Shown here one piece after another: positions 9,834-15,164 of a DNA stretch of 64,000 nucleotides; the stretch's first letter is position 1; each line of letters begins with the position of its first letter. The notes beneath the pieces are model-generated. The model saw only the letters and a program-made list of their open reading frames with translations. It ran no database searches and had not been told where the DNA came from. The position numbers and the translations under genes were made by a program. Origin of the DNA: Halalkalicoccus jeotgali B3 (GTDB taxonomy: Archaea > Halobacteriota > Halobacteria > Halobacteriales > Halalkalicoccaceae); assembly GCF_000196895.1 (NCBI RefSeq), contig NC_014297.1:1-64000 (forward strand). Reading direction: 5' to 3'.

Positions 9834-9909
9834 AGCCAAGGGCCGGATTTGAACCGGCGATGGGCGGCTCTGCAGGCCGCTGCGTTAGGCCGGACTCTGC
9901 CACCTTGGC
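9834..9909 (-). tRNA. tRNA-Cys(GCA)
   Basis: 76-nt tRNA on the minus strand. Acceptor strands GCCAAGG and CCTTGGC pair fully, the anticodon stem CGGC/GCCG holds loop CTGCAGA with anticodon GCA, and the T-loop is TTCAAAT. No CCA is encoded. It sits downstream of 5S, the classical position for tRNA-Cys in haloarchaeal rRNA operons. Here it is separated from 5S by a strong hairpin and has its own TATA element. Confidence 0.95.
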
Positions 9910-9978: not shown

Positions 9979-10015
9979 AAAAAAGCCCACGACCCCGAGA
10001 AGGGTCGTGGGCTTT
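9979..10015 (-). terminator. Intrinsic-type hairpin terminator after 5S rRNA
   Basis: A perfect 14-bp stem (9982-9995 with 10002-10015) closes a 6-nt loop. On the minus strand it is followed at once by six T residues (plus-strand A-run 9979-9984). It lies 12 nt beyond the 5S 3' end. The form is that of a factor-independent terminator; archaeal RNA polymerase is known to respond mainly to the T-run. It would end the rRNA transcript before tRNA-Cys. Confidence 0.7.
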
Positions 10016-10026
10016 GAAGTATGAAT

Positions 10027-10257
10027 GGAAGGCGGCGAACCACCAGTTGCGAACCGTTGTAACGGAACGGTCTCGGGTTCCACCGGGACGGACCCAGCGT
10101 GTACTTCCGATTGCGTTCCTGGGTTCGTACTTGGCCCCTCTTGCGAGGCAGTTTTCCCAGAGGCTCGCGCACTCCAGTACTCGCGGGAACGCTGGCGGGC
10201 TTATCTGCCGTGTTCGGGATGGGTACGGGAGTTGCCCCGCCGCTATGGCCGCCTTAA
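10027..10257 (-). rRNA. 5S rRNA with 108-nt insertion
   Basis: The 5' end TTAAGGCGGCCATAG (10257 downward) and the normal 5S core (GTACCCATCCCGAACACGG, GCGCGAGCCTCTGGGAAA) are present. At nucleotide 108 (plus position 10150) the sequence leaves the 5S consensus for 108 nt. It rejoins at 10041 with GGTTCGCCGCCTT. Helix I is restored only across the insertion: AAGGCGGC pairs with GCCGCCTT (8 bp). Total length is about 231 nt against the usual 120-122. The size and position of the insertion match the one known from Halococcus morrhuae. Confidence 0.92.
10042..10149 (-). other. 108-nt insertion within 5S rRNA
   Basis: Lies between 5S residues 108 and 109. It contains local hairpins: ACCCAG/CTGGGT (10092-10097 with 10119-10124) and ACCGTT/AACGGT (10053-10058 with 10066-10071). 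It has no ORF or insertion-sequence ends. In Halococcus morrhuae an insertion at this site stays in the mature rRNA and leaves the canonical 5S fold intact; the same is inferred here. Confidence 0.85.
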
Positions 10258-10372: not shown

Positions 10373-13290
<2,918 letters not shown>

Positions 13291-13308
13291 GATATTGGAT
13301 TTGTCACT

Positions 13309-13502: not shown

Positions 13503-13574
13503 TGGACCCACTGGGATTCGAACCCAGGGCATCCTCCTTGCAAAGGAGGCACTCTACCGCTGAGCTATGGGCCC
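13503..13574 (-). tRNA. tRNA-Ala(TGC) in the 16S-23S spacer
   Basis: 72-nt tRNA. Acceptor arms GGGCCCA and TGGGTCC pair with one G-T, the anticodon stem CCTCC/GGAGG holds loop TTTGCAA with anticodon TGC, and the T-loop is TTCGAAT. CCA is not encoded. A spacer tRNA-Ala is typical of euryarchaeal rRNA operons. Confidence 0.96.

Positions 13575-13690: not shown

Positions 13691-15164
<1,474 letters not shown>

Follow-up and report, generated by a model that had tools for sequence, protein, structure and literature searches.

The window analysed in this work, a 64,000-nucleotide stretch of DNA from Halalkalicoccus jeotgali B3, carries on its minus strand a ribosomal RNA operon in the order 16S-tRNA-Ala-23S-5S, with an expanded 5S rRNA gene in last place. 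The genes and features of the operon and its downstream region are listed below.

13691 to 15164, minus strand: 16S rRNA gene, same operon as the expanded 5S
13503 to 13574, minus strand: tRNA-Ala(TGC) gene in the 16S-23S spacer
10373 to 13292, minus strand: 23S rRNA gene, same operon as the expanded 5S
10027 to 10257, minus strand: expanded 5S rRNA gene, 231 nt, with ends as in the published Halococcus morrhuae 5S
10150 to 10257, minus strand: leading 108 nt of the 5S core, with helices II-V, loop E and the 5' strand of helix I (RF00001 match and alignment)
10042 to 10149, minus strand: 108-nt expansion segment (sequence and spacing; covariance model R1 matches 10154-10040)
10027 to 10041, minus strand: 3' end of the 5S core, GGTTCGCCGCCTTCC, which holds GCCGCCTT, the 3' strand of helix I
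9979 to 10015, minus strand: terminator-like hairpin AAAGCCCACGACC...GGTCGTGGGCTTT with a T run, downstream of the 5S gene (sequence; similar hairpins at related loci)
9834 to 9909, minus strand: tRNA-Cys(GCA) gene, downstream of the operon

Read on the minus strand from 10257, the gene is an ordinary archaeal 5S for 108 nt, up to ...GGGAAAACT, and 108 unrelated nucleotides (10149-10042) then precede the ordinary 3' end. The spacing from GGGA to TTCG is 115 nt in the window gene versus 7 nt in ordinary haloarchaeal 5S, so that the insert is exactly 108 nt long, with a boundary that can be shifted by about 4 nt because ACTG is present at both ends. The insertion site lies between loop E and the 3' strand of helix I, and the two strands of this helix, AAGGCGGC (10255-10248) and GCCGCCTT (10036-10029), can pair solely across the insert. 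The original prediction had proposed this division of the gene, a helix I formed across the insertion, a 5S of about 231 nt, and gene finders that call only the broken part of the gene. The division is borne out by the sequence and the length of the insert by the spacing, AAGGCGGC does pair with GCCGCCTT on the far side of the insert, and 10257-10027 maps exactly onto the published 231-nt H. morrhuae gene. In the covariance-model search RF00001 matched 10256-10143 alone (72.7 bits versus a gathering score of 38), and its alignment imposes a false 3' end and a false helix I 3' strand on the window gene. Since standard 5S models truncate expanded genes, misannotation is to be expected wherever such genes occur, and truncation of expanded 5S genes in annotations has been described (PMC7812874).

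A second, normal 5S gene that might supply the functional copy, a possibility raised in the original prediction, did not turn up in a genome-wide search (7 contigs totalling 3,698,650 bases, 98.6% completeness). An identical layout is found in five other Halalkalicoccus genomes (six with the window's own), among which is Halalkalicoccus paucihalophilus DSM 24557 (G002, NZ_LTAZ01000003.1). The window gene aligns end to end with a locus of H. morrhuae DSM 1307 (G086, C54:66306-66548, NZ_AOMC01000054.1), on which the published 231-nt 5S occupies 66311-66541 and maps exactly to window positions 10257-10027. When the 5S of H. morrhuae was sequenced as RNA, it measured 231 nt with the 108-nt insert included (Luehrsen 1981, as cited in PMC7812874), and the expanded form is the sole 5S found in the cell. 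In the cryo-EM structure of the H. morrhuae large subunit, the insert exits via a four-way junction and leaves the 5S core undisturbed, and past this junction it is flexible and poorly resolved (PMC7530397); retention of the H. morrhuae insert in mature RNA, stated in the original prediction, thus agrees with both publications. Comparison with 5S genes of Halococcus and Halalkalicoccus species revealed a shared insertion site, similar sequence and the same organization into a short hairpin and a long jointed arm, so that the predicted kinship to the Halococcus-type 108-nt expansion holds at the level of both sequence and structure, and the five congeners are alike. Halomarina and Halodesulfurarchaeum, too, have an insert of similar sequence at this site. 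The placement of the source in or near Halococcus was only partly right: the 5S is of the Halococcus type, but the source genus is Halalkalicoccus and not Halococcus.

Introns do exist in archaeal rRNA genes, and if the splicing endonuclease and ligase of archaea cut the 108 nt out of the precursor, a 5S core of normal length would result, but such an intron is extremely improbable here, since the four candidates found in a bulge-helix-bulge scan are weak, do not lie at the ends of the insert and would not yield a normal core, since the H. morrhuae 5S was, by the account given above, sequenced as RNA with its insert, and since the strong covariation and invariant tip described below would be unexpected in a discarded spacer. 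We consider it highly probable that the window gene is the single functional 5S of Halalkalicoccus, that it is of the Halococcus type, and that the insert is kept in the mature RNA.

The structure of the insert consists of five helices, with one short hairpin and a long arm in four parts. The following elements, all on the minus strand, are described here.

10137 to 10148, minus strand: hairpin 1 (CCTC/GAGG), the short arm at the junction; three of four pairs compensatory, 100% of cells paired
10045 to 10131, minus strand: helix 2, base of the long arm, 10131-10123 with 10054-10045; eight of eight pairs changed on both sides
10064 to 10119, minus strand: helix 3, GGAACG (10119-10114) with CGTTCC (10069-10064); four of six pairs changed on both sides
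10073 to 10110, minus strand: helix 4, 10110-10107 with 10076-10073; four of four pairs changed on both sides
10078 to 10105, minus strand: distal tip, AGUA (10105-10102) and GAA (10080-10078) with the near-invariant hairpin CACGCWGGG-UYCGU-CCCGGUG (10101-10081) (column counts, 33 sequences)

Two alignments were used in the analysis of covariation. A plain sequence alignment of 21 inserts gave 29 consensus pairs, 18 of which had changed on both sides; among the 33 model-aligned matches (32 distinct) the figure was 21/29, in an alignment that was fitted to the covariance model and whose covariation counts therefore lean towards that model. Over the 32 distinct inserts, 176 cells with both-side changes were observed versus 50 in shuffles, and 99.5% of the cells were paired versus 36-55% when the partners were slid. 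The covariation score was 0.56, compared with 0.20 for shuffled inserts and at most 0.12 with partners slid. Such very strong covariation across 32 distinct inserts argues that the insert has been selected as a structured RNA. The five-helix covariation structure is new as far as we could find, and it provides a firm secondary structure for the arm that cryo-EM left unresolved.

The distal tip is almost invariant across six families. In the AGUA columns, A and G are conserved in 33/33 sequences and U and A in 31/33; in the GAA columns, G is present in all 33, the middle A in 31 and the last A in 28; and every one of the 33 rows has the GGG/CCC tip stem. AGUA and GAA flanking a hairpin form the signature of the loop-E (bulged-G) motif, which also occurs in the 5S core. 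Judged from its sequence, the insert tip appears to carry a loop-E-like (bulged-G, sarcin-ricin) signature, and its layout of AGUA, 21 nt and GAA is the same as that of loop E and helix IV in 5S. An origin of the insert as a duplicate of loop E/helix IV was considered and rejected, as alignment of the insert with its own core was no better than that of shuffled inserts in nine of ten genomes. The insert had no match in 16S or 23S rRNA, and no known RNA family was detected within it (best E = 8.1). Because the helices are selected as structure and the tip as sequence, contact with a ligand, be it a protein or some other part of the rRNA, would be the likeliest role of the tip, and we put such a contact at about an even chance. 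The invariant tip is a concrete target in the search for a ribosomal partner.

The alternative of a neutral insert, tolerated on account of its outward orientation from the ribosome, would fit the flexible, poorly resolved appearance of the insert in cryo-EM (PMC7530397), its lack in most haloarchaea and the altered tip of one gene from the Halomarina genus (G356); we regard it as quite unlikely, since pairing was kept through both-side changes in 21/29 pairs and the tip hardly varies over six families, a constraint unlike that of neutral sequence. The G356 insert itself (C1:363965-364075, L143 1501-1611) has AGUAGACCAGGGUUCGCCCCAGUCGAC in place of the near-invariant tip and lies in the only 5S match of that genome; it is either a natural test of the essentiality of the tip or an early sign of decay.

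The distribution of the insert was surveyed by a pattern scan of one genome set and by covariance-model or DNA searches of another. It was found in about 40 genomes from about a dozen genera and six families: Halalkalicoccus, Halococcus with two uncultured relatives (QS/QH MAGs), the Halococcus-family genus g21, Halomarina, Halocatena/Actinarchaeum, Halodesulfurarchaeum, the group of MAG QH_7_66_36, Ordosarchaeia (Ods02 and two others of its family, i.e. three of four genomes) and Hikarchaeia (HikBin5 and PW3.metabat2.160 of the same GTDB family, i.e. two of four genomes). Matches came from 33 of the 392 genomes in the class sample; outside the order there were no matches among 295 genomes sampled across the phylum under strict filters, and 2.9 million viral contigs gave no pattern match. 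The two Hikarchaeia MAG contigs have the same genes downstream of 5S and about 40% GC outside the rRNA genes; the Hikarchaeia expanded 5S is not derived from a stray haloarchaeal contig. In the genomes checked with RF00001, no archaeal 5S gene other than expanded copies is present, and two genomes (G389 and G226) have two 5S genes each, both expanded. Ordinary 5S genes are present in a family-mate of Halalkalicoccus (G007) and in G020, which the rRNA tree places as sister to Ordosarchaeia. We are aware of no earlier description of the inserts in Halocatena/Actinarchaeum, several uncultured groups, Ordosarchaeia and Hikarchaeia (Marine Group IV), and a limited literature search found nothing that ties Ordosarchaeia or Hikarchaeia to expanded 5S. 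In published trees, Hikarchaeia are the closest relatives of Haloarchaea and Ordosarchaeia branch deeper (PMC7599335, PMC10873845).

Some individual loci were recorded in the course of the survey. Genome G010 of the Hikarchaeia family seems at first to hold an additional normal 5S (C103, L172 1553-1670), but this reads as a bacterial-type 5S and is thus probably contamination. Halococcus thailandensis has a second RF00001 match (1532-1624) adjoining and just upstream of its expanded 5S (G072, C155, L047 1532-1740). In the GTDB genus g64 the 5S is expanded in G186 (L058) and normal in G249 and G312 (L072, L073), and these three close genomes could serve to date a gain or loss. At 81-193, contig L105 (PXTT01000034.1, titled Bacteroidetes bacterium QS_9_68_14) has an insert that hardly differs from the one in the haloarchaeal MAG QH_7_66_36; L105 is therefore probably misbinned archaeal DNA.

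The inserts are homologous, found at the same site and matched by the same model, and a single origin is by far the simplest reading. Divided by the 16S+23S divergence, insert divergence comes to 1.0-1.8 inside most genera and to 1.5-5 between most of them, deep lineages included (1.9-4.5 for Ordosarchaeia and Hikarchaeia versus the rest), a pattern that host and insert would produce by diverging together. Low ratios were obtained for Halalkalicoccus-Halococcus (0.60), for pairs within Ordosarchaeia and for pairs within Halodesulfurarchaeum. Divergence of the insert in the deep lineages keeps pace with that of rRNA, which favours an old origin followed by losses, and its presence in two deep sister lineages makes it probable that the insert long predates the recent, patchy gain that is generally assumed. 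On the rRNA tree, parsimony requires either seven unordered changes or one gain and ten losses, so there is room for several transfers; with few insert-free genera sampled and a weak backbone (support of 60-75%, with Hikarchaeia G010 nested within haloarchaea at 66%), this count does not decide the matter.

Stepanov and Fox (2021) suggested horizontal transfer for the archaeal expanded 5S (PMC7812874), and a late origin in Halococcus/Halalkalicoccus with horizontal spread to Halomarina, Halodesulfurarchaeum and others is possible but doubtful. It would explain the patchy distribution, and the inserts of Halococcus and Halalkalicoccus are closer than their rRNAs predict. The 16S+23S tree joins Halalkalicoccus and G007 at 100%, and the same data weakly reject a Halalkalicoccus+Halococcus grouping (AU p = 0.042), towards which the 5S data lean (delta lnL 13.6, AU p = 0.082); even without the insert, 2-5 sites separate the window 5S core from that of Halococcus and 9 separate it from that of family-mate G007. 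Halalkalicoccus and Halococcus are neighbours in a published 100-protein tree (PMC7812874). The data hint at a 5S transfer between them but do not prove it. Expanded 5S is encoded by two plasmids of Halococcus dombrowskii, 261 and 351 kb in size (NZ_CP095007.1 and NZ_CP095009.1); it closes a complete 16S-tRNA-23S-5S operon on NZ_CP095007.1 (L186 3034-8243) and is located at about 8001-8243 of L187 on NZ_CP095009.1; these plasmids are a possible vehicle. Against a late spread in general, the inserts of other cross-family genus pairs have diverged at least as much as their rRNA, the viral contigs hold no copy, and the Ordosarchaeia and Hikarchaeia inserts are so divergent (JC distance 0.46-0.72) that recent spread cannot account for them.

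We propose that the 108-nt expansion is cotranscribed with the rest of the rRNA operon and retained in the mature 5S, where it would leave the core beside loop E and the three-way junction via a four-way junction; the short hairpin and the long jointed arm may then project from the central protuberance of the large subunit with the 5S fold undisturbed, the arm helices being under selection as structure and the tip as sequence. As to when and in which direction the insert was gained, lost and transferred, we infer one origin at this site, probably no later than the common ancestor of Ordosarchaeia, Hikarchaeia and Haloarchaea, with many losses afterwards and a likely later exchange between Halococcus and Halalkalicoccus. 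To an old origin of the 5S expansion as such we would give roughly equal weight for and against. The fuller proposition, that the expansion was already present in this ancestor, was lost in most haloarchaeal genera and was retained elsewhere because its loop-E-like tip binds a ribosomal partner, is offered tentatively, as somewhat short of an even prospect.

Several known systems can be compared with the window gene. Archaeal BHB introns also place additional sequence within rRNA genes, but the window insert has no BHB at its boundaries and its homologue stays in the mature RNA. The bacterial expanded 5S rRNAs (Thermoanaerobacterium, Halanaerobium and others) likewise have a large helical insert in the 5S core; they differ from the archaeal type in insertion sites and structures (PMC7812874) and show no sign of homology to it. 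The H. morrhuae 5S is the same in length (231 nt), insert (108 nt), site and ends and is likewise the sole 5S type, differing in genus and in sequence (about 93% identity over the gene). In the survey of Stepanov and Fox, the archaeal type was reported in 15 strains of Halococcus, Halalkalicoccus, Halomarina and Halodesulfurarchaeum, and the 108-nt insertion was stated for all species of the Halococcus-Halalkalicoccus cluster (PMC7812874). The 231-nt 5S with its 108-nt insert is thus an already known kind, documented for Halalkalicoccus, and because the genus is already listed, the window gene is not itself new and alone carries little weight. The parts worth keeping are the covariation-supported structure and the reach of the insert: the survey covered four genera and proposed horizontal transfer, whereas here the type extends to further genera and into Ordosarchaeia and the marine Hikarchaeia, and so is not simply peculiar to a few salt-lake genera.
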